Shown piece after piece: positions 10,465 to 20,622 of a stretch of DNA of 64,000 bases. A program made the translations under genes and the position numbers. Under the pieces are notes generated by a model that ran no database searches, had not been told where the DNA came from, and worked only from the letters and a program-made list of their open reading frames with translations. This DNA is from Acidisarcina sp. GTDB taxonomy: Bacteria > Acidobacteriota > Terriglobia > Terriglobales > Acidobacteriaceae. The stretch covers positions 434,001 to 498,000 of the forward strand of contig DATLIY010000007.1 of NCBI GenBank assembly GCA_035539175.1, written 5' to 3'. The number at the start of each line of letters is the position of its first letter. Position 1 is the stretch's first letter.

Positions 10465-11700
10465 TTAGTACGGCTGCTTAGTGGTTTTTGCTTCGGCAAG
10501 GGTGACGCGGCGCTTCTCGCGATATGCGAGATTGGCCATATGTGCGGCGATAGCTGAGTTGTAGCCCACCTCCACCGGCGCATTCGTCTTCTGATTCCTG
10601 GAACGGATGCACTCCATCCAGTTCGCCATGTGATCCTTGCTCTGCGATTCTCCAGTGAGGTTTACGCCATTGGGCCGATTCAGCTTCTCAGGATAGTAGT
10701 TGATGCCCGAGGTATATTTTCCGGTGACCATATCCGTCGCGCCGCTGACGTGCTCGATGGTGCCGTCGCTGCCGAGAATCCTCTCTCCCAGGCCGAAGTG
10801 GTGATTGCTGAAGGTGGATTGCCACAGCACAATCGTCTCGGGATACTCCATCGTGACCGCAATCGTGTCCGGAACCTGGCGGCCATCCTTCTCTGAGAAG
10901 ACACCGCCTGACATGGTCACGGCCTCCGGCTCCTTCAGGTTGAGAGCTGTCTGGATCCAGGCAATCTGATGAACCATGTTCTCCGTAATGTTGCCGCCGG
11001 AAAACTCCCAGAAGAGCCGCCAGTTGATGAATTTGTTCCCATCAAACTCTGACTTGGGCCGGCCATCCAGGAAGAGATTCCAGTTGACGTGATCGGGATT
11101 GCAATCGCTGGGGACAGGGCGCACCCATTGTCCATGGCCGTGCGGAGTGTTGCGGCTCATCCATGCCTCGACCAGGGCAACCTTGCCGACCAGACCGTCG
11201 TCGATCCATTTCCGCGCGTCGGCCAGATCTCCGTCGCTCTCATGCTGCAAGCCAAGCTGCACCACCTGCTTGGAGTTCTGCGCTGCTTTCAGGCAGGCCT
11301 CAGCCTCTGCAATGTTCCACGTCATGGTCTTCTCGCAATAGACATCCTTGCCCGCGGCGAGCGTGGCCAGCATATGCTCTGCATGGAGATGCAGCGGAGT
11401 GGCTACGATGACAGCATCCACGTCCTTGCGTTCGAGAAGGCGCCGCGGATCGTCATACAGTTCGGCACCGGGAACAAGAGTCTTTGCCCGATCGCGGTTC
11501 CGCGAATAGACATCAGCGATTGCTACACATTCCACATCCGGCTGCCGAAGCGCATCCTTCAGATCCTGTGTCCCACGATCGCCAGCGCCGATAAGGCCAA
11601 AGCGAATGCGATTGTTGGCTCCCAAGGCACGCGCTGAAGGATATGCCGCCATTACCGCAGCACCGGCTGCGATGCCACCCACGAATTCCCGTCGATTCAT
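10465..11700 (-). CDS. Tat-exported Gfo/Idh/MocA-family sugar oxidoreductase
   Basis: The 411-residue product opens with a Tat signal (MNRREFVGGIAAGAAVMAAYPSARA). A Rossmann NAD(P) motif follows (GLIGAGDRGTQD, about 35-46). The family EKP motif is EKT here (residues 123-125, YCEKTMTWN). The C-terminal half is the usual alpha/beta dimerisation and substrate domain, with the GGNITENMVHQIAW segment that holds the catalytic-region His. Members oxidise or interconvert sugars with tightly bound NAD(P). Export with cofactor bound is known for Zymomonas glucose-fructose oxidoreductase, also in this family. It is the last gene of a minus-strand run with two exported TIM-barrel sugar enzymes, which points to extracytoplasmic oxidation and isomerisation of a sugar or glycoside. 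The substrate is unknown. Confidence 0.87.
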   Translation of the reverse strand: MNRREFVGGIAAGAAVMAAYPSARALGANNRIRFGLIGAGDRGTQDLKDALRQPDVECVAIADVYSRNRDRAKTLVPGAELYDDPRRLLERKDVDAVIVATPLHLHAEHMLATLAAGKDVYCEKTMTWNIAEAEACLKAAQNSKQVVQLGLQHESDGDLADARKWIDDGLVGKVALVEAWMSRNTPHGHGQWVRPVPSDCNPDHVNWNLFLDGRPKSEFDGNKFINWRLFWEFSGGNITENMVHQIAWIQTALNLKEPEAVTMSGGVFSEKDGRQVPDTIAVTMEYPETIVLWQSTFSNHHFGLGERILGSDGTIEHVSGATDMVTGKYTSGINYYPEKLNRPNGVNLTGESQSKDHMANWMECIRSRNQKTNAPVEVGYNSAIAAHMANLAYREKRRVTLAEAKTTKQPY

Positions 11701-11725
11701 TCCCTAACCCCTTCTTACTGTTTTT

Positions 11726-12715
11726 TCAAACCAATGCGCCGGCAGTCTCCAACGCAACCTTCATTCCAGCCCAGCTCTGGCGGGACGATTCCTCCGGTGT
11801 ACCTGCTCCACGCCAGTGCGTCTCCAGACTCACGGCATGGCGATACCCCATCGCCTTCAATGCCTTGAATTGCTCCGCCCAATGAATGACGCCTTTACCA
11901 ACCGGCTCCCATTCGTAACCGCCACCGGACTTTATTACAGTGTCCTTGCAGTGGCAGTGACCAATACGATTCTTCGGCAACAGGTCCCAGCCATTGGGGA
12001 AAGGAGTTTCGCCAAGTGCAGCCGCATTTCCTGGATCCCAGTTCAGCATCAGGTGTGGCGAAGGCACCGCGGCCAGCACCTTTGCGGCTTCCGCCCCTGT
12101 ACCGGTATTGCAGGCCATCTCGTTCTCCAAAATAAAGATGAGTCCCTGCCTGCCCAGTTTTTCTGCTGCATCCTGCAACTTGGCATTGATTGCCTTGCGG
12201 TACGGAGCAGGATCATCCAGTCTCCAGAAATCGAAGCCCCGGACGCGATCCGTCTGGAAGGCCTTCGCCAACTCGATGCTCTTGTCCAGTACGTGATCCT
12301 GGTCTTTGAAAGTGAAGGCGGCGTTGAATTGATCATGCTTCGGGCTGAACTTCGACAGCGGAGCGTCCGGCCAGTCCACCTTGAAGAGCGGGCTGGCAAT
12401 ATCGGTCACGCGCAGTTGGTATTTCGCCAGGATGCGACGCGCCTCGGCGATCTCTGCCGCGTCGAGCGCAAGAATGTTCTTCTTCCACAGATCCCTCAAC
12501 TCGACCCACTGCATGCCGAACTCCTGCGATGCCACAGCGCAGGCATGGTCGAAGTCCTGAGAGATCTCGTCCGTGATAACCGCGATCCTGAAGGGAGACT
12601 TCAACCGTGACATTTTTGCAATCTCCGAACCAATGGCTTTCGAGGGTGAAAGCCCGGCGGCAGCCATAGCAGCACCCACCCCAACCAGAAAACTACGGCG
12701 ATTCACATCCGACAT
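11726..12715 (-). CDS. Tat-exported xylose-isomerase-like TIM-barrel sugar epimerase/isomerase
   Basis: I place the start at ATG 12715, preceded by a purine-rich SD (GGAGGGGAGAAGAG); an upstream in-frame start would overlap the preceding gene. The 329-residue product has a Tat signal (NRRSFLVGVGAAMAAAGLSPSKA). The body is an AP-endonuclease-2/xylose-isomerase-like TIM barrel: IAVITDEIS at the first strand, a Glu strand (IFILENEMACNTG), MLNWDPGNA and the C-terminal HCHCKD and VSLETHWRG metal-site strands. Relatives are hydroxypyruvate isomerases, sugar-phosphate or keto-sugar epimerases and 3-keto-glycoside lyases. An exported member cannot act on cytoplasmic sugar phosphates, so a free sugar or keto-glycoside is more likely. 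It lies between a similar enzyme and an exported Gfo/Idh/MocA oxidoreductase. Confidence 0.84.
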   Translation of the reverse strand: MSDVNRRSFLVGVGAAMAAAGLSPSKAIGSEIAKMSRLKSPFRIAVITDEISQDFDHACAVASQEFGMQWVELRDLWKKNILALDAAEIAEARRILAKYQLRVTDIASPLFKVDWPDAPLSKFSPKHDQFNAAFTFKDQDHVLDKSIELAKAFQTDRVRGFDFWRLDDPAPYRKAINAKLQDAAEKLGRQGLIFILENEMACNTGTGAEAAKVLAAVPSPHLMLNWDPGNAAALGETPFPNGWDLLPKNRIGHCHCKDTVIKSGGGYEWEPVGKGVIHWAEQFKALKAMGYRHAVSLETHWRGAGTPEESSRQSWAGMKVALETAGALV

Positions 12716-12764: not shown

Positions 12765-13631
12765 CTAGGCCTTATCGTTCCTTCCGGCAAGAACCCCGCG
12801 CATGTAAGCGAAGCTCTCCATCATGCCCGGCATGGGATCGTCTGGATGAATCTCATATTCCAGATCCACACAGCCCTTGTAGTTCTGCTCGATCAGCGCG
12901 TTGAAGATAGCAGGAATCGGCATAAGCCCTTCGCCGACCGCCACCTGGCTATCCCGGCTATGGAAGTCCGTCAGGTCCTTGATGTGCATGTCGAAGAGAC
13001 GCGGTCCGCACTGCTTGATGGCGTCCACCACGTTTGTTCCGGCGCGCTCGGCGTGTCCTGCATCCAGGCAAACGCCCATCCGCGGGTCCATCCCCTGTAC
13101 GGCCTTCAACGAGTCCAGGGGCGAGGGGAACTGCTTATCCTCGGGGCCATGATTGTGGATCGCAATTCGAATGTCATATTCTTTGGCGAACTTCTCGATG
13201 CGGGGAAGCGTCTCCCGCGTGGGGCCCGCCACGATCAGCGAGATTCCCGCCAGCTTGCAGTATTCGAACTTGGGCCGCATGTCGGCATCGTCATCTTTTG
13301 TCATGTAGATGGTGCCCGCCGCGGTCAGTTCGATTCCGGCATCGCGATAGACTGCGGCTGCCTGTTTGATCTCCGCGGGAGTGCCCATCGGCAGGTGGAA
13401 GTCCTTCACGTTCAGGTAGGGCGTTCGCAATTGTTTGAGATCCGCGATAACCTGCTGGGGTTGAAATTTTCTCAGGGAGAAGCTCGCTACTCCGAGCCGA
13501 ATGGGAGATGATGACTCTTTCTTATTGCTGTCATTAGCTGCAGCAAGGGATGCATGAGGAGAGAGAAGCGCGGCAGTTGCTGCCAGGGCGCCTCCACGAA
13601 GGAAGCCACGTCGACTCGCTGTCTGGATCAT
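12765..13631 (-). CDS. Tat-exported xylose-isomerase-like TIM-barrel sugar enzyme, first gene of the operon
   Basis: The 288-residue product from ATG 13631 carries a Tat signal (MIQTASRRGFLRGGALAATAALLSPHASLAA) and a TIM barrel of the sugar phosphate isomerase/epimerase type: LGVASFSLR at strand one, IAIHNHGPEDK, MGVCLDAGHAERAG and GCVDLEYEIHPDDP, which supply the His, Asp and Glu metal ligands. A TTG at 13667 is in frame, but it is part of a -35-like TTGACA. No SD precedes the ATG, which fits a leaderless message. It leads a minus-strand run with a second TIM barrel and a Gfo/Idh/MocA oxidoreductase, all exported. The two TIM barrels differ clearly in sequence, so they probably do different steps. 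The substrate is unknown. Confidence 0.83.
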   Translation of the reverse strand: MIQTASRRGFLRGGALAATAALLSPHASLAAANDSNKKESSSPIRLGVASFSLRKFQPQQVIADLKQLRTPYLNVKDFHLPMGTPAEIKQAAAVYRDAGIELTAAGTIYMTKDDDADMRPKFEYCKLAGISLIVAGPTRETLPRIEKFAKEYDIRIAIHNHGPEDKQFPSPLDSLKAVQGMDPRMGVCLDAGHAERAGTNVVDAIKQCGPRLFDMHIKDLTDFHSRDSQVAVGEGLMPIPAIFNALIEQNYKGCVDLEYEIHPDDPMPGMMESFAYMRGVLAGRNDKA

Positions 13632-13974
13632 GCACGGAAATCTACGACGCAGATATGGGTATGTCAAGCTATCTTACACATTTAAAAATCGTTGACGATA
13701 GCCTATCCATTACGGGCACAATTCCTATCGCTCGGAGCACGGTGGAAACCTTGAGGAACGTGGTCTTTACGCCACAACTTTCACCTCTGGCGCAAATTGA
13801 CAGCTCCACAACCCCACTGCTACCGTCATCTGTAAGGTTGCCTGACAGATACTTCACACCCATCCATTTCCTGCTCCCCCGCGCTAATTTTGCAAAACCA
13901 AAGAGCAGACGGTCTTGAGAGGGGTCTGTGACCTGCGGCCCATAACACAGGATCCACAACGGCGAGGAATTCGA
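13632..13974. other. 343-base divergent intergenic region
   Basis: It separates the minus-strand Tat enzyme run from the plus-strand MFS gene. It contains a strong minus-strand promoter candidate at its left edge, an inverted repeat GCTATC/GATAGC (13668-13673 and 13697-13702) that could be an operator, and a weaker plus-strand candidate with a perfect TTGACA (13797-13802) and TACCGT after 18 bases. No gene was seen. Confidence 0.5.
13639..13667 (-). promoter_or_regulatory. promoter placing +1 at the ATG (candidate leaderless transcript)
   Basis: On the minus strand TTGACA (13667-13662), 17 bases, then TAGATT (13644-13639). The expected transcription start 6-8 bases further on falls at about 13632, next to ATG 13631. 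The lack of an SD before that ATG fits. Confidence 0.55.
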
Positions 13975-15276
13975 ATGAACAAGGCGCAGAGCGTCGACGA
14001 GAGCGTGATGTACCGCCCTAAGGACAACAGCAACCGCATGCGCTGGGTCCTCTGCGCGCTGCTTTTTCTGGCCACCACAACCAACTATATGGACCGCGTG
14101 GTCCTGGGCATTCTCGCTCCATTGCTGGAAAAAGATATGCATTGGACCGAGAACAGCTATGGCAACATGGTGGCGAGTTTTACCTTCGCCTACGCCCTGG
14201 CTTACCTGCTCTCCGGACGCATCGTCGATCGCTTTGGCACCCGGCGCGGATACGGTCTGTTTGTCGGCATCTGGAGCCTGTCTTCGCTGGCACATGCATT
14301 CGTCCACAGCGTCGTCGGATTCGGAACTGCCCGCTTCTTTCTGGGTATTGGTGAGTCCGGCAACTTTCCCGCCGCGTTGAAGGCGGTGGCCGAGTGGTTC
14401 CCAAAAGAGGAGCGCGCCCTTGCGACGGGAATCTTCAACTCCGGCACCAATTTCGCCGCCCTGCTGGCTCCTGCCCTGATTCCTTATATCGCCCTGCGCT
14501 GGGGATGGCGCTACGCATTCGTCTTCACCGCCGGCTTGAGCATGTTATGGCTGATCCTCTGGATGGCCTTTCCCTACAATCGCCTGCGGCCGCATGGCGA
14601 ACTACTTACGCAGAGCGCCGTTCAACTGGAAGAGTTGACCGAGCAGCGTTCCTTTACCTCGCTGCTGCTGGATCGCGGAACGCTGGCTTTTGCCGCCGGT
14701 AAATTTCTCACCGATCCTGCGTGGTGGTTCTATCTATTCTGGGGACCGAAGTTTCTCAGCAGCCAGTTTCATATGTCGCTCAAGCAGATGAGCATTCCTC
14801 TGACCATCATCTACTTTGGTGCAAGCTTCGGCAGCATCCTTGGAGGATGGCTCTCCGGAATGTGGATGAAGCGCGGACATACGGTGAACTTCAGCAGGAA
14901 GGCCGCAATGGCCATCTGCGGGGTTTTCGCTCTGCCGGTTGTCATGGCAAGCCACATTCCAAACTTCTGGATCACCGTTGCGGTGATCACCGTCGCGGCG
15001 GCGGCCCATCAGGGCTGGTCGGCCAACATATTCTCTACGCCATCCGACCTCTTCCGCGCAGGCTCGGTTGCTACGGTGGTTGGAATTGGCGGAACAGCAG
15101 GCGCGCTCGGCGGTACGGTCTTCGCCAAGCTCGCCGGCTATATGCTCAATCGTACGCATAACTACTCCACCCTCTTCGTGATTTGTGGATGCAGTTATCT
15201 GGTAGCCATGCTTTTCTTCCAGGTAATGGTTCCACAACTCAGCCATAATCGAGGCCGCGCCGCAACCGATGCTTAA
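13975..15276 (+). CDS. MFS sugar-acid (hexuronate-type) transporter
   Basis: The 433-residue product has 12 predicted membrane segments and belongs to the anion:cation symporter branch of the major facilitator superfamily, with ExuT/GudP-like marks: TTTNYMDRVVLGILAPLL in the first segment, GRIVDRFGTRRG in loop 2-3 and FFLGIGESGNFPAALKAVAEWFPKEERALATG across segments 4-5. It would import a sugar acid such as a hexuronate or aldonate with protons. The start is ATG 13975, with GCGAGG 7 bases upstream; longer in-frame starts lack an SD. It is the first gene of a plus-strand run with SDR, KDPG aldolase, LarA-like and PfkB genes, which supports a sugar-acid substrate. Its stop codon sits in the loop of a perfect hairpin. 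Confidence 0.88.
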   Translation: MNKAQSVDESVMYRPKDNSNRMRWVLCALLFLATTTNYMDRVVLGILAPLLEKDMHWTENSYGNMVASFTFAYALAYLLSGRIVDRFGTRRGYGLFVGIWSLSSLAHAFVHSVVGFGTARFFLGIGESGNFPAALKAVAEWFPKEERALATGIFNSGTNFAALLAPALIPYIALRWGWRYAFVFTAGLSMLWLILWMAFPYNRLRPHGELLTQSAVQLEELTEQRSFTSLLLDRGTLAFAAGKFLTDPAWWFYLFWGPKFLSSQFHMSLKQMSIPLTIIYFGASFGSILGGWLSGMWMKRGHTVNFSRKAAMAICGVFALPVVMASHIPNFWITVAVITVAAAAHQGWSANIFSTPSDLFRAGSVATVVGIGGTAGALGGTVFAKLAGYMLNRTHNYSTLFVICGCSYLVAMLFFQVMVPQLSHNRGRAATDA

Positions 15277-15288
15277 GCATCGGTTGCG
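15261..15288 (+). other. stem-loop carrying the MFS stop codon in its loop
   Basis: Perfect 12-bp stem (CGCAACCGATGC and its complement) around a TTAA loop; the TAA stop is at 15274-15276. No T-run follows. It lies between the transporter and SDR genes and could act as an mRNA-processing or stability element. Confidence 0.6.
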
Positions 15289-15350
15289 CAGGACGCCATA
15301 GTTCTGCAAACCAAAAATCGAAATCCAGATCAGCAGAAGGAGCATGTACG

Positions 15351-16127
15351 TTGGGAAATTCACTTTTTTCTTTGGAAGGCAGAACCGCGGTTGTTGTCGG
15401 AGGTACTACTGGAATTGGCCATGCACTCTCACTGGGCCTGGCCGAAGCGGGAGCCGATGTAATTGCATCCGCGCGACGGCAGGATCAGGTGGAAGCGATC
15501 GCCGCTGAAATCGAAGCCAAGGGGCGCAAGACCCTGCGAATCACTTCGGACGTCCGCGATAGAAATTCGCTCGAGAATTTATCGAGCACGGTACTGAATT
15601 CCTTCGGCAAAGTCGACATCCTGGTGAATTGCGCAGGCATCACGAAGCGTGCACCCAGTCTCGATTTCCCCGAAGACTCATGGAACGACATCCTGGACAC
15701 GAACCTTACCGGAACGATGCGGAGCTGCCAGGTATTTGGCAAGCACATGCTGAGCCGGGGTTACGGACGCATCATCAACATAGCGTCGATCTCGACCTTT
15801 CTCGGCTTGTTTGAGGTCACAGCTTATGGAGCAAGCAAAGCGGCTGTCGGCGAATTGACGAAGTCCCTGGCGGTGGAGTGGTCACGCCACGGAGTGATGG
15901 TGAATGCAATTGCACCCGGATTCTTCCGCACCGCTTTGAATGCAGCGCTGCTGGATGGAACGGATCGGGGCCGGGAAATCCTTACCCGCAGCCCGATGGG
16001 CCGTTTTGGAAAGATTGAGGAGTTGGTCGGCGCCGCGGTCTTCCTTGCATCCGAGGCAGCCAGCTTTATTACCGGCGAAATCCTCGTGGTGGATGGCGGC
16101 TATCTTGCCAGCGGTGTGAATCGGTAG
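15351..16127 (+). CDS. SDR-family sugar-acid dehydrogenase (gluconate 5-dehydrogenase/KduD-like)
   Basis: The 258-residue protein is a classical short-chain dehydrogenase: a cofactor loop GGTTGIGHA (about 17-25), a NCAG strand motif, an active-site Ser in NIASIST and the catalytic YGASK. The C-terminal segment IAPGFFRTALNAALLDG followed by RSPMGRFGKIEELVGAAVFLAS resembles gluconate 5-dehydrogenase and 2-keto-3-deoxygluconate (KduD) enzymes, which interconvert hydroxy and keto sugar acids with NAD(P). The start is TTG 15351, with AAGGAG 7 bases upstream; the nearby ATG is out of frame. Its place between a sugar-acid transporter and a KDPG aldolase supports a role in sugar-acid breakdown. Whether it reduces a uronate or oxidises an aldonate cannot be told. 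Confidence 0.85.
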   Translation: MGNSLFSLEGRTAVVVGGTTGIGHALSLGLAEAGADVIASARRQDQVEAIAAEIEAKGRKTLRITSDVRDRNSLENLSSTVLNSFGKVDILVNCAGITKRAPSLDFPEDSWNDILDTNLTGTMRSCQVFGKHMLSRGYGRIINIASISTFLGLFEVTAYGASKAAVGELTKSLAVEWSRHGVMVNAIAPGFFRTALNAALLDGTDRGREILTRSPMGRFGKIEELVGAAVFLASEAASFITGEILVVDGGYLASGVNR

Positions 16128-16161
16128 AAACAGGAACCTGTACAGCAAAATAAGGACGTTG

Positions 16162-16857
16162 ATGACGAAGGCTCAGGTATTGGCTCGAATTCACGATGCA
16201 GGACTGTTGCCGGTACTGCGTGCAAGTTCATCGGAACAGGCGCTTGCCCTGGCAGGCGCTCTCGAGGCGGGCGGCATCACGGTATTGGAAATCACGATGA
16301 CGGTCCCCGGCGCGGTGGAGGTGATTCGCCGGCTGGTGTTGGAGGCGGGAGATCGCCTGCTGATCGGTGCCGGAACCGTGCTCGATCCGGAAACGGCGCG
16401 CGCCTGCATGCTCGCGGGGGCGGAATTTATCGTGAGTCCCTCGCTCAATGTGAAGACGATCGAGATCTGCCAGCGCTATGGAATCGCGGTACTTCCCGGC
16501 GCGCTGACGCCGACCGAGGTGGTCACCGCCTGGCAGGCGGGCGCCGATGTGGTTAAGGTTTTCCCTTGCAGCGCGGTGGGCGGAGCAAAATATCTCAAGG
16601 CGCTCAAAGCTCCGCTGCCGCAGATTGAACTGATCCCCACCGGCGGCGTATCGCTGGCCACGGCAAGCGAGTTTCTCGAGGCGGGTGCCTATGCGCTGGG
16701 AGTTGGCAGTGATCTGGTCGATGCCAAGGCAATCCAGGCAGGCAGGCCAGAGAGCATCACGGAAAATGCACGGAAGTATCGGACGATTGTGCAGCAGGCG
16801 CGAGGGTTCAGCAAACCAGCGTTGCACTCGAGCACTGAAGAAGTCCGCACGGTTTGA
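16162..16857 (+). CDS. eda: KDPG/KHG aldolase
   Basis: The 231-residue protein cleaves 2-keto-3-deoxy-6-phosphogluconate (or 4-hydroxy-2-oxoglutarate) to pyruvate and glyceraldehyde 3-phosphate. Family marks are the catalytic Glu in TVLEITM, the IGAGTVLD strand, FIVSPSLN and the Schiff-base Lys in DVVKVFPCSAVGG. The GVSLATASEFLEAGAYALGVGSDLV phosphate-binding end is intact. It is slightly longer than the usual 205-215 residues because of a C-terminal tail. ATG 16162 has TAAGGA 5 bases upstream; a TTG directly before it is also possible. It lies in a sugar-acid operon; its phosphorylated substrate would come from the KdgK-like kinase two genes downstream. The stop overlaps an upstream extension of the next frame, so spacing to the next likely start is about 120 bases. 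Confidence 0.9.
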   Translation: MTKAQVLARIHDAGLLPVLRASSSEQALALAGALEAGGITVLEITMTVPGAVEVIRRLVLEAGDRLLIGAGTVLDPETARACMLAGAEFIVSPSLNVKTIEICQRYGIAVLPGALTPTEVVTAWQAGADVVKVFPCSAVGGAKYLKALKAPLPQIELIPTGGVSLATASEFLEAGAYALGVGSDLVDAKAIQAGRPESITENARKYRTIVQQARGFSKPALHSSTEEVRTV

Positions 16858-16976
16858 GGATTGGAGCCGCTTCCCCGATTGCGGCTCTTAAGGACCATGA
16901 GAAGAAAACTCGAGGCTGGAAATGGCCTGCCGCTGCGGCATTGCATCCTGGGGCCGTCGCGGAGTTTGGAGGTACT

Positions 16977-18278
16977 GTGGTTAACGGAATAGGAAATGCG
17001 GATCGTTATCTGACCAGGGACGAGATACGAAAGGTCGTTTCCGACGCTGTGGATTCGCTTGCATTGGATAACAAGCGGGTCCTGATCATCATTCCCGACG
17101 GCACTCGCACGATGCCGATGCCGCAGATGTTCGAAGCATTTCAGGAGCTGCTGCGCCCCAGAACCAAGGCTCTTGATTACCTGGTCGCGCTCGGCACTCA
17201 CCAGGCAATGACGGACGAGCATCTGAGCAAGCTGGTTGGCCAGCCAGTTGTCGATGAAAAGGTCGGCGAAACCCACATCTTCAACCATCATTGGGAAGAC
17301 CCGGCAAATTTCGTCAACTTCGGATCCATACCGGCAAAGGACATCTCCGACCTCACCGGCGGACTGGTGGCGAAGGAAGTGCCGGTTAGTTTGAATAAGT
17401 TGATTCTTGACTATGACCATCTCGTGATCTGCGGCCCGGTATTTCCGCACGAGGTAGCAGGCTTCTCCGGCGGCAATAAGTATTTCTTCCCTGGCATCGC
17501 CGGCTCGGAAATTATCAACTTCACACACTGGCTTGGCGCGGTCATCACCAACTACAAGATCATCGGGACCGACTACACGCCGGTTCGGGCTGTGATCGAT
17601 CGTGCGGCGGCAATGATTCCCCGCCCCACCTCGCTCATCGCGCTCGTCGTCACGTATGAGGGTGTGGCAGGTCTCTATTACGGATCGACGCAAGAGGCAT
17701 GGGCCGCCGCAACCAAGCTCTCCGCGAAGAAGCACATCGTCTATGTCGACAAGCCGTTCCGGCGTGTGCTCTCGGTAATGCCCGAGATGTACGACGATCT
17801 GTGGACGGGCGCAAAGGGCATGTACAAGATGGAGCCTGCGGTCGAAGACGGCGGCGAAGTGATCATCTACAGCCCGCACATCACTGAGGTTAGCTACACC
17901 CACGGCAAGCTGCTCGATGAAGTTGGATACCATTGCCGTGACTACTTTCTGAAGCAGTGGGATAAATTCAAAAACTACCCTGGCGGCGTGCTCGCCCACT
18001 CCACACATTTGAAGGGCCTTGGAACGTACGACCCCGCAACCGGCATTGAGACGCCGCGCATCCATGTGACATTGGCCACCGGCATTCCCGAGGAGCGCTG
18101 CCGCCGCATCAACCTCGGATATCTCGATCCGCGGAGTATCAACCTGGACGACTGGCGCAACCGTGAGCAGGAGGGCATCAAGCTGGTTCCCCACGCGGGA
18201 GAGACTTTATTCCGCCTGAAGCACCCGGCCGCCGCGTCCGAATCGCAAGCTACAGCAGCAATGCAGACGGTGTCGTAG
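16977..18278 (+). CDS. nickel-pincer (LarA-family, DUF2088) racemase/epimerase, probably for a sugar acid
   Basis: From GTG 16977 (GGAGG 4 bases upstream) the product has 433 residues, close to Lactobacillus LarA (424). An earlier in-frame ATG (16854) adds a tail unlike the family. LarA residues are kept in order: D41 and R44 (IPDGTRTMP), H75 (LGTHQAMT), H158 and K168 (FPHEVAGFSGGNKYFFPG; in LarA His174 and the cofactor-tethering Lys184, same spacing) and H184, 16 residues after the lysine as the nickel ligand His200 is in LarA. V160 replaces Cys176. Family members shift the configuration of alpha-hydroxy acids through a hydride on a nickel-pincer nucleotide; some act on aldonates. The KDPG aldolase and KDG kinase neighbours suggest C2 epimerisation of an aldonate. 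The cofactor genes larB, larC and larE are not in the window. Confidence 0.82.
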   Translation: MVNGIGNADRYLTRDEIRKVVSDAVDSLALDNKRVLIIIPDGTRTMPMPQMFEAFQELLRPRTKALDYLVALGTHQAMTDEHLSKLVGQPVVDEKVGETHIFNHHWEDPANFVNFGSIPAKDISDLTGGLVAKEVPVSLNKLILDYDHLVICGPVFPHEVAGFSGGNKYFFPGIAGSEIINFTHWLGAVITNYKIIGTDYTPVRAVIDRAAAMIPRPTSLIALVVTYEGVAGLYYGSTQEAWAAATKLSAKKHIVYVDKPFRRVLSVMPEMYDDLWTGAKGMYKMEPAVEDGGEVIIYSPHITEVSYTHGKLLDEVGYHCRDYFLKQWDKFKNYPGGVLAHSTHLKGLGTYDPATGIETPRIHVTLATGIPEERCRRINLGYLDPRSINLDDWRNREQEGIKLVPHAGETLFRLKHPAAASESQATAAMQTVS

Positions 18279-18364
18279 CGCCGCCGCAAGACATTGACTT
18301 TGAAAACCGCCCGAAGGGACCAGCCGTCCTATTCGGGAGTGAACGACTAAGGAGAAAGACTCAA

Positions 18365-19447
18365 ATGGATCTCGGATTTAAGATCGCAGAAAAAGGCACA
18401 CTGGATTTTCTTTCGCTCGGTGCTCTCGTCCACCGGCTCGATCCAGGCATCATCCCGTTTCGCAAAGCTCATGACCTTGCAGTCCACGTAAGCGGCGGCG
18501 AATTCAATGTCGCTGCCAATCTTTCCGATTGTTTTCGGCTGCAGACCGGCATCGCCTCCGCCATGGTCTCCTACCCGGTTGGCGATCTGATTGCGGAGCG
18601 CGTGCGCGCCATGGGCGTGCGCCCTCTGTACCGCACCTTTACGCACGATGGCACGCATGGCCCCAACATGGCGACGGTATACAGCGACCGGGGATTTGGC
18701 GTGCGCGCCCCCGTGGTCTTTTACAACCGCTGCAATGAGGCGGCAGCGCTGCTGAAGCCCGGCGACTTTGATTGGTCTGCGATCTTTCAAGAAGGAGTGC
18801 GGTGGTTCCACAGCGGCGGCATCTTTGCCGCGCTCTCCGATACCACGGCAGAGCTGGTGATTGAAGCCATGAAAGCCGCGCGGGCCGCTGGAGTCATCTG
18901 CTCGTTTGATCTGAATTACCGCGAGAAGCTCTGGAAGTTCCGGGGCGGAGCAGAGCGCGCTCAGGAAGTCCTGGGAGCCATCGTGGAGAACGTGGATGTA
19001 CTCGTCGGCAATGAAGAAGACCTGCAAAAGGGTCTGGGCTTTGCCGGTCCCGAGGTAGCTGCGCGTTCCAAACTAGATCCCGCTGCCTTCCTCTCCATGA
19101 TCGAGCGCGTGACCGCGCGTTATCCGAAGGTGAAGGTTGTGGCCACGACCCTGCGCGAAACCCACTCCACCAATCGTCATAGCTGGAGCGCGGTGGCATG
19201 GGTAAATGGAACTCCCGTATTCGCTCCCACCTGCGAGCTGGATGTTTATGATCGCGTAGGCGGTGGCGATGGCTTCGCCGCAGGCTTTATCTATGGCCTG
19301 CTCAGCGGAGAGGCTCCCGAAGAAGCGATCAAGCTGGGATGGGCTCACGGAGCGCTGCTCACTACCTTCCCCGGCGATACAACGATGGCAACCGTGGAGC
19401 AGGTCAGGGACTTCGCTCGCGGTGGATCGGCGCGAATCCAGCGCTAA
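18365..19447 (+). CDS. PfkB-family sugar kinase, probably 2-keto-3-deoxygluconate kinase
   Basis: The 360-residue product is a ribokinase-fold kinase. The N-terminal half has VSGGEFNVAANLSDCF (substrate glycine region), the middle VICSFDLNYREKLW and VDVLVGNEEDL typical of KdgK-like members, and the C-terminal catalytic motif is YDRVGGGDGFAAGF, with the base at about D302; the usual GAGD is GGGD, a variant common in one KdgK-type branch. It would phosphorylate 2-keto-3-deoxy sugar acids to the substrate of the KDPG aldolase encoded upstream. AAGGAG lies about 10 bases before the ATG. It is longer than the usual 310-330 residues owing to an insertion near 215-265. It is the last gene of the run and is followed by a hairpin cluster. 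Confidence 0.83.
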   Translation: MDLGFKIAEKGTLDFLSLGALVHRLDPGIIPFRKAHDLAVHVSGGEFNVAANLSDCFRLQTGIASAMVSYPVGDLIAERVRAMGVRPLYRTFTHDGTHGPNMATVYSDRGFGVRAPVVFYNRCNEAAALLKPGDFDWSAIFQEGVRWFHSGGIFAALSDTTAELVIEAMKAARAAGVICSFDLNYREKLWKFRGGAERAQEVLGAIVENVDVLVGNEEDLQKGLGFAGPEVAARSKLDPAAFLSMIERVTARYPKVKVVATTLRETHSTNRHSWSAVAWVNGTPVFAPTCELDVYDRVGGGDGFAAGFIYGLLSGEAPEEAIKLGWAHGALLTTFPGDTTMATVEQVRDFARGGSARIQR

Positions 19448-19734: not shown

Positions 19735-20475
19735 CTATTTCGCTCGTACCTTGGCGGTGCGAGCCTCGTCGGCAGCACCCACCGATGCAGATTCATGCTC
19801 GCCGGAGAGAGTCTCTTTGACGCGCAGCAGATGTTGCCGCATGGCGGTTCGCGCTCCCAGAGCATCGCCGGTTGCAATGGCAGCAAGAATGGCCTTGTGG
19901 TCGCGCACCGTCGCCTCCTGATTCCTCAGCAATCCGGTCCGCTCGCTCAGCTTGGTAAACATCGGGTTGAACATGTTGCTCCACAGCGTCTCCACCAGGC
20001 CGGTTAGAACGCTGTTGCCCATCACGGACGCAATTCGCTTATGGAAGGCTTGATCGGCGTCCCTACCATGACCACCTTCCTCCATCACCCGTTCCATTTC
20101 TTCAATGGTCTGCCCAATTTCCTGGACGTCTTCTGGTGTAGCCAGCACCGCCACATTGGCGGCAATCTCTCCTTCGATAAGCAGGCGTGCATTCAGAAGT
20201 TCGAACGGGCCTGGGCCGGAGTCCAAGATGATAGCCCGTGCAGGTGTGTGCTTGCTGACATAGATGCCGGACCCGGTGCGAACCTCAACCAGCCCGGAGA
20301 TCTCCAGCGCGATCATGGCCTCCCGAATGGTGGGACGGCTCACGCCAAGTTGCCGCGCCAACTCCTTCTCCGAGGGAAGGCGCTTGCCGGCGCTGATCTT
20401 TCCGCTGGCAATGAGGTCCTCAATACGGCTGGCCACCTGTTGGTAAAGGCGCTGTGTAGCTATTGGTTGGAGCAT
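19735..20475 (-). CDS. FadR-subfamily GntR transcriptional regulator
   Basis: The 246-residue protein from ATG 20475 has an N-terminal GntR winged helix (LYQQVASRIEDLIASGKISAG, then LPSEKELARQLGVSRPTIREA and GLVEVRTGSGIYV) and an all-helical FCD ligand domain with the metal or ligand residues in the AFHKRIASVMGN and DHKAILAAI helices. The longer frame (to 20580) adds 35 residues ahead of the domain and has no better start. UxuR, ExuR and similar members repress uronate and aldonate genes and are released by the substrate. Its place at the end of the sugar-acid operon, convergent with it, makes it the likely controller of that operon and possibly of the divergent Tat operon. Its operator was not identified by eye. 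Confidence 0.87.
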   Translation of the reverse strand: MLQPIATQRLYQQVASRIEDLIASGKISAGKRLPSEKELARQLGVSRPTIREAMIALEISGLVEVRTGSGIYVSKHTPARAIILDSGPGPFELLNARLLIEGEIAANVAVLATPEDVQEIGQTIEEMERVMEEGGHGRDADQAFHKRIASVMGNSVLTGLVETLWSNMFNPMFTKLSERTGLLRNQEATVRDHKAILAAIATGDALGARTAMRQHLLRVKETLSGEHESASVGAADEARTAKVRAK

Positions 20476-20622
20476 AGAAGCAATATCCTGGCGTGTCCGC
20501 AGGGTATCAGATAGCTTGACAGCCGTCCATATGCGCGATTCTGCGCGAACCCGCACCGGATTACGGGGCTTGCCCGTCATCCCAAAGATGGAGAGGTTTG
20601 CAGTCGCCCCGTCAGCGAGGGT

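Follow-up and report, generated by a model that had tools for sequence, protein, structure and literature searches.

The closest described relatives of the system treated here are GntE-type enzymes, homologues of the nickel-pincer enzyme LarA whose epimerisation of mannonate has been demonstrated (PMC7583248). In Thermotoga maritima, a locus of gnd, uxaE, uxaD, gntE and gntK is laid out for a route from uronate through mannonate and gluconate to 6-phosphogluconate (PMC3750489), and gntE has been proposed to direct uronates to the pentose phosphate pathway in this organism (PMC7583248, PMC3750489). According to PMC6978723, Rodionova et al. 2012 had already pointed out gntE homologues in Acidobacterium and Terriglobus. 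A further homologue lies in a sugar-acid operon of Acidisarcina sp., in the 64,000-nucleotide stretch analysed here as a whole (the window; positions 434001-498000 of contig C7, in a genome of 3.92 Mb and 13 contigs). It is an epimerase of known kind: mannonate/gluconate epimerisation by LarA homologues and its use in uronate catabolism are already in print, and homologues have been noted in acidobacterial genera. Our favoured explanation, which we consider probable, is that this nickel-pincer enzyme of the GntE branch converts D-mannonate to D-gluconate in a hexuronate catabolism split over the genome. The part that may be new is a hypothesis on the kinase of the operon.

Assignment of the LarA-like protein to the GntE branch

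The operon lies on the + strand in the order major facilitator superfamily (MFS) transporter (13975..15276), short-chain dehydrogenase/reductase (SDR; 15351..16127), 2-keto-3-deoxy-6-phosphogluconate/2-keto-4-hydroxyglutarate (KDPG/KHG) aldolase (16159..16857), Lar_N protein (16977..18278) and PfkB kinase (18365..19447), with gaps of 74, 31, 119 and 86 bases, the third counted from a GTG at 16977. These open reading frames (ORFs) and families are as described in an earlier note on this DNA, which listed a transporter, SDR, KDPG aldolase, LarA-like protein and KdgK-like kinase.

The LarA-like protein carries a Lar_N domain (PF09861, 2e-26). By sequence, its closest solved structure is 4NAR (1.2e-69; 35% identity over 421 columns), which is GntE2 of T. 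maritima, an enzyme that acts on D-mannonate and has the same cofactor (R, K, H) and catalytic (D, H, H, K) residues (PMC7583248). The predicted fold (mean predicted local distance difference test score, pLDDT, 75.6) is also closest to 4NAR (Foldseek 1.8e-38, template modelling score, TM, 0.82), and the PDB matches to it at E <= 0.001 are without exception LarA-family chains (19/19). The closest named relative comes from an Acidobacteriaceae metagenome-assembled genome (77%).

The longest ORF of the protein begins at a TTG at 16854. Counted from the GTG at 16977, as in the earlier note, which had aligned D41, R44, H75, H158, K168 and H184 with LarA catalytic and cofactor residues, these six residues and V160 stand exactly as numbered there. 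The six, but not V160, are invariant in an alignment of eight sequences that includes a second LarA homologue of this genome. A larger alignment comprises 70 proteins, namely the window protein and those of 69 of the 80 related loci described below, the 11 loci without a usable ORF being left out. The residues D72, R75, H108, H174, K184, H200 and K298 (LarA numbering) are all present in the window protein (7/7) and show no substitution among the 70, one protein being gapped at the first two. Glu, Val, Ala and His at LarA positions 175, 176, 358 and 359, the usual residues of GntE (PMC11770544), are found together with a helix 11 Trp in 70/70 proteins (E200, V201, W317, K321, A381 and H382 in the ORF numbering of the window protein, the catalytic Lys included). 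For 358/359, where the alignment to LarA itself is weak, the columns were set from the 4NAR alignment together with the E-V-A-H string in print, and PMC7583248 (2020) paired W358 with another GntE2 residue, N348. V160 is thus part of the published GntE signature (PMC11770544). Its earlier description as a replacement of LarA Cys176 was mistaken, as the LarA residues at this loop are F175 and F176 (PMC7583248) and Cys176 belongs to LarE, where it donates sulfur (PMC11796402, PMC9283937).

A search of the genome for larB, larC and larE, which the earlier note had suggested, found all three contiguous on contig C9, away from the operon, so that the lack of these genes, named in that note as a refutation, does not apply. 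LarB (296 bits, cut-off 175), LarC (449, cut-off 22) and LarE (320, cut-off 150) pass their cut-offs. LarE (L003:2802-3749, adjoining larC and larB) has the motif SGGIDS and cysteines at 117, 120 and 197 of its longest ORF, with another at 277; judged by this pattern, it fits the CXXC-C iron-sulfur type of T. maritima (PMC9283937).

Family, residues and cofactor genes, as read from the sequence, place the protein in the D-gluconate 2-epimerase (GntE) branch of the nickel-pincer superfamily and make it probably an active, cofactor-dependent aldonate C2 epimerase in a sugar-acid operon, in agreement with the earlier expectation of an active, cofactor-bound enzyme. Epimerisation of D-mannonate/D-gluconate is predicted from homology and gene context. 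Within this branch, the protein is filed outside the hexonate-epimerase equivalog NF052594, because it scores 191 bits against a cut-off of 500 and five relatives score 165-201.

Partner genes and the proposed route

To describe the gene context, the best 80 of 107 relatives were taken as related loci, with up to 10 kb on each side (some cut by contig ends), and searched by tblastn with reference proteins; matches covering <45% of the query were dropped, except for phosphofructokinase (PFK). The SDR is matched in 56 of these loci (at 45-100% identity to one or other of a pair of references, of which one came from these same loci), Gnd in 35, UxaC in 25 (21 at no less than 50% identity) and UxaE, named from PF16257, in 19 (two at 30-32%). 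Kinases of the window type or related to it are found in 20, PFK-type genes in 11, FGGY and GntK in 7 each, and the aldolase in 2. At least one of UxaC, UxaE, SDR, Gnd and a partner kinase is present in 71/80. The queries for dehydratases were the UxaA/GarD-type, arabinonate-type and IlvD-type proteins of this genome and an enolase-family protein whose score is that of an amino-acid racemase. They match in 0/80 loci, as do E. coli UxuA and UxuB, although queries this few could overlook a distant enzyme. The related operons point mainly to gluconate, 6-phosphogluconate and pentose phosphates, and not to a 2-keto-3-deoxy route.

Two further families recur in these loci. A HAD-like protein of about 300 residues is found near GntE in 19/80 (e.g. 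L067:4395-5309), and the one member scanned matches general HAD models alone in Pfam. A relative of diphosphate-type phosphofructokinase lies downstream of GntE in 11/80 (e.g. L065:12948-14246), mostly right after Gnd, and is never in the same locus as the window-type kinase.

As the earlier note reported for the operon, no match to UxaC, UxuA, mannitol-dehydrogenase-type UxuB/UxaB, IlvD/EDD, UxaA/GarD or MR_MLE was found inside the 64-kb window. The nearest relative, L008, has the same operon with UxaC inserted between the aldolase and epimerase genes, and in this genome UxaC is on contig C11, unlinked to the operon (579 bits, cut-off 387). The LarA-like enzyme does not therefore replace the uronate isomerase, as had been proposed; the isomerase is unlinked here. 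No relic of uxaC was seen between the aldolase and epimerase genes when window 16701-17100 was compared with L008 by blastn, the matches beyond chance covering the flanking aldolase and epimerase parts alone.

The proposal that the enzyme stands in place of a dehydratase holds in part. UxuA has no match in the genome, as in the 80 loci, and neither do mannitol-dehydrogenase-type UxuB/UxaB reductases, which the SDR may replace. Dehydratase genes of other types are present elsewhere in the genome. A SAF/GD_AH gene of the altronate/galactarate dehydratase type (UxaA/GarD) neighbours a GH28-like gene on C7. There are also two IlvD/EDD genes, which pass the cut-offs for IlvD (689 vs 618 bits) and L-arabinonate dehydratase (969 vs 882), respectively, but not that for EDD. 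There are three MR_MLE matches, the third below the Pfam cut-off. The two scanned are best as o-succinylbenzoate synthase (above its cut-off) and N-acetyl-D-Glu racemase (below it), and neither comes near the cut-offs for gluconate or mannonate dehydratase. Gnd is present, unlinked (788 bits, cut-off 427). By classical families, the isomerase pathway (UxaC, UxuB/UxaB, UxuA/UxaA, KdgK, Eda) is not complete; its parts in the genome are UxaC, the UxaA/GarD-type enzyme, PfkB kinases and Eda. The operon Eda (PF01081 4.9e-49; TIGR01182 203 bits, above the cut-off of 156) is the single aldolase match in the whole genome.

In the route that we propose, hexuronate catabolism would be divided among these places. 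The unlinked UxaC would make fructuronate or tagaturonate, which the operon SDR would reduce to mannonate or altronate. This substrate is suggested for the SDR by its presence in related loci and by its NCBIfam scores, all below cut-off, as KduD (261 bits), gluconate 5-dehydrogenase (252) and D-mannonate oxidoreductase (236). As the genome has no recognised mannonate dehydratase, GntE would turn D-mannonate into D-gluconate, inverting C2 by the hidden-redox hydride transfer known for LarA. Gluconate would then most likely be phosphorylated, possibly by the operon PfkB kinase, and the unlinked Gnd would take 6-phosphogluconate into the pentose phosphate pathway. The aldolase would serve 2-keto-3-deoxygluconate (KDG) from the unlinked UxaA-like, altronate-type dehydratase or from other sources. 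Of the earlier suggestion that C2 epimerisation of an aldonate feeds a 2-keto-3-deoxy route, the aldonate epimerase stands as probable, while the destination shifts mainly to 6-phosphogluconate, with a KDG route still possible through the aldolase.

Substrate of the operon kinase

The kinase (PF00294) is closest to the KDG kinase 2afb of T. maritima (1.2e-48), and its PfkB fold is likewise closest to known KDG kinases (2afb: VIA Z 39.3, 2.5 Å over 322, 33% identity). It falls short of the curated KDG-kinase cut-offs, with 34.6 of 400 bits for NF052444, 76 of 400 for NF040938 and 130 of 440 for NF041332, and the NCBIfam model that it matches best, a KDPG aldolase/sugar kinase fusion, gives 245 bits, under the cut-off of 700. 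Kinases of the window type are found in 18 of the related loci. Two references were used, one taken from L023, and identity to whichever is closer is 74-100%. A second type, about 45% identical to the window type, is found in L010, in L012 and in this genome at C7:258766, the last being 65-67% identical to the other two.

We tentatively propose, with a chance somewhat below even, that the operon kinase founds an unrecognised class of PfkB-type gluconate kinases, unrelated to the FGGY and P-loop gluconokinases, and that with UxaC/UxaE, SDR, GntE and Gnd it makes up a dehydratase-free route from uronate to pentose phosphates across Acidobacteriota and Chloroflexota. A gluconate kinase would complete the step from gluconate to 6-phosphogluconate in the loci that carry the window type. 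In 13 of the 18, this kinase shares locus and strand with GntE and Gnd, and in 12 of those 13 the order is GntE-Gnd-kinase (L009 has a transporter between). FGGY, GntK or PFK-type matches are found in none of the 18. Thus, the 18 window-type loci and the 25 with FGGY, GntK or PFK-type genes overlap in 0/80 (hypergeometric 4e-4), and against FGGY and GntK alone (14 loci) the value is 0.019, related genomes inflating both; the second-type kinases of L010 and L012 had been set apart by their 45-48% identity before the count. The PFK-type genes may have functions other than gluconate phosphorylation, the reference used for FGGY scores 442 bits, below the gluconokinase cut-off of 649, and 5/7 FGGY matches are only 31-36% identical to that reference. 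We count the exclusion pattern as support only.

The alternative is given a chance that comes close to even while staying short of it. In this reading, put forward in the earlier note, the enzyme is an ordinary KDG kinase, an unlinked dehydratase makes KDG from gluconate or altronate, the operon kinase phosphorylates it, and the operon aldolase splits the product. The nearest structure and the best NCBIfam match agree with this, as does the aldolase in the operon, the sole one found in the genome. The UxaA/GarD-type enzyme beside the GH28-like gene and the L-arabinonate-type dehydratase are possible sources of KDG. The Tyr-x-Arg of 2afb is kept in the window-type kinase and absent from the second kinase of the genome. 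In L010, moreover, it is the second type that follows Gnd and a transporter, which also argues against a gluconate kinase. On the other side, the close relatives of the operon kinase are with the aldolase in just 1/18 loci, no EDD passes its cut-off, and the two scanned enolase-superfamily genes are poor candidates for a gluconate or mannonate dehydratase. The role of KDG kinase is also better placed with the second type, because its neighbours in L012 are an aldolase match, an SDR practically at the cut-off for KduD (338.7 vs 338.85 bits) and a member of the KduI/IolB family, although the last falls short of both family cut-offs and is closer by score to IolB than to KduI. An OrfB/IS605-type transposase with a Cas12f-like TNB domain (L012:16644-17879) lies between this SDR and the aldolase match.

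Sequence motifs separate the two paralogous kinase groups, and the window-type group has YNR-x-NEA and GGGDGFA, unlike 2afb. A literature search gave no relevant paper on residues that set KDG apart from gluconate specificity. A PfkB-type gluconate kinase is not named in the titles and opening parts of abstracts that a literature search gave, which is no proof of its absence from print. If the gluconate-kinase reading is true, a family readily taken for KdgK could be partly mis-named.

Other readings of the epimerase, neighbouring genes and known systems

Several points weigh against D-mannonate to D-gluconate conversion in a split pathway. The operon holds a KDPG aldolase and not Gnd. Among the best 25 of 235 models matched, the only subfamily model that the SDR passes is NF005559, 'glucose 1-dehydrogenase' (220 vs 215 bits). 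None of UxaC, UxaE, SDR, Gnd or a kinase partner is found in 9/80 loci, of which three are contigs of <8 kb and five hold full 10-kb flanks. The exact hexonate could also differ, because the subgroup stays below the NF052594 cut-off and the protein is only 35% identical to GntE2. That the enzyme epimerises another hexonate or an aldarate, e.g. altronate/allonate or L-gulonate/L-idonate, is unlikely. In addition to this distance from the named equivalog, a different native substrate was suspected for group 19 in PMC7583248 (2020), whereas mannonate to gluconate is the conversion that best suits the partners UxaC, UxaE and Gnd.

Less likely again is a hexonate substrate already phosphorylated by a mannonate kinase, so that the enzyme would convert 6-phosphomannonate to 6-phosphogluconate. 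Lactobacillus suebicus phosphorylates mannonate first and epimerises the phosphate, and both activities were found in its extracts, the genes not being known (PMC6978723); the unsettled substrate of the operon kinase leaves room for such an order. However, the candidate in that paper is described as aldose 1-epimerase-like and so is not clearly a LarA homologue. In vitro, unphosphorylated D-mannonate is a substrate of both GntE1 and GntE2 (PMC7583248), and the window protein has most of its signature residues in common with the latter. A lactate- or malate-type racemase merely located in a sugar-acid operon is very improbable, as the protein shares the superfamily (PF09861) but has the loop E-V and not F-F, its partners are uronate genes, and the lactate/malate-type enzyme of the genome by score is the second LarA (382 bits, below the cut-off of 460). 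That homologue (L001:1483-2829; G000:C8:10043-10651) has L-M at the loop, residues described for short-chain hydroxyacid racemases (PMC7583248).

Upstream of the operon and divergent from it on the - strand are a Gfo/Idh/MocA oxidoreductase (10465..11700; PF01408) and two xylose-isomerase-like TIM-barrel proteins (11726..12715 and 12765..13667; both PF01261), the second of which is kept in L008 at 81%. The UxaC cluster on C11 (L098:6874-10796) includes paralogues of the first two beside UxaC (L098:7939-9174 and L098:6874-7905, respectively), so that the Gfo/Idh/MocA and TIM-barrel gene pair is common to that cluster and the epimerase operon (window 10465-12715). Convergent with the operon is a GntR/FCD regulator that is UxuR/ExuR-like (19735..20580, - strand; PF07729, PF00392), with NF007588, Uxu operon regulator, as its best NCBIfam match (145 bits, below the cut-off of 442). 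The transporter (PF07690 3e-55) is of the D-galactonate/hexuronate kind, with TIGR00893 as its best NCBIfam match (221.6 bits, below the cut-off of 395). The operon, the UxaC cluster, the UxaA-type gene and L008 were also examined for a regulator site shared by their upstream regions, and a palindrome scan of 12 stretches showed no common motif by eye. A promoter scan fell below chance (1 vs 2.3 expected) and a terminator scan was about one standard deviation above it (8 vs 5.2); neither was used.

With the predicted activity, nickel-dependent epimerisation of sugar acids would have a place in uronate operons of Acidobacteriota and Chloroflexota, and a way of using glucuronate without mannonate dehydratase is suggested. 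Compared with GntE2 (LarAH20, 4NAR), the window protein is alike in fold, in all tested catalytic and cofactor residues, in the Glu after the catalytic His, the Trp four residues before the catalytic Lys and the A-H pair, and in its uronate gene context. It differs in overall identity, in having Val where GntE2 has Ser at the second loop position, and in an operon with Eda and a PfkB kinase where T. maritima has Gnd and GntK, the latter being of the FGGY type. NF052594, built for the LarAH group 18 putative hexonate epimerase, is the best-scoring curated LarA subfamily model, and the window protein has the published EV loop motif of groups 18-20, although it falls outside the equivalog by score. 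The related loci imply the same set of steps as the T. maritima hexuronate route (uxaE, uxaD, gntE, gntK, gnd), whereas in this genome UxaC, Gnd and the UxaA-type gene are unlinked, the reductase is an SDR and the kinase is PfkB. Finally, the operon kinase resembles the T. maritima KDG kinase TM0067 (2afb) in fold, in sequence (33% identity) and in its Tyr-x-Arg, but it differs in the two group motifs and in relatives that neighbour GntE and, in 13/18 loci, Gnd.

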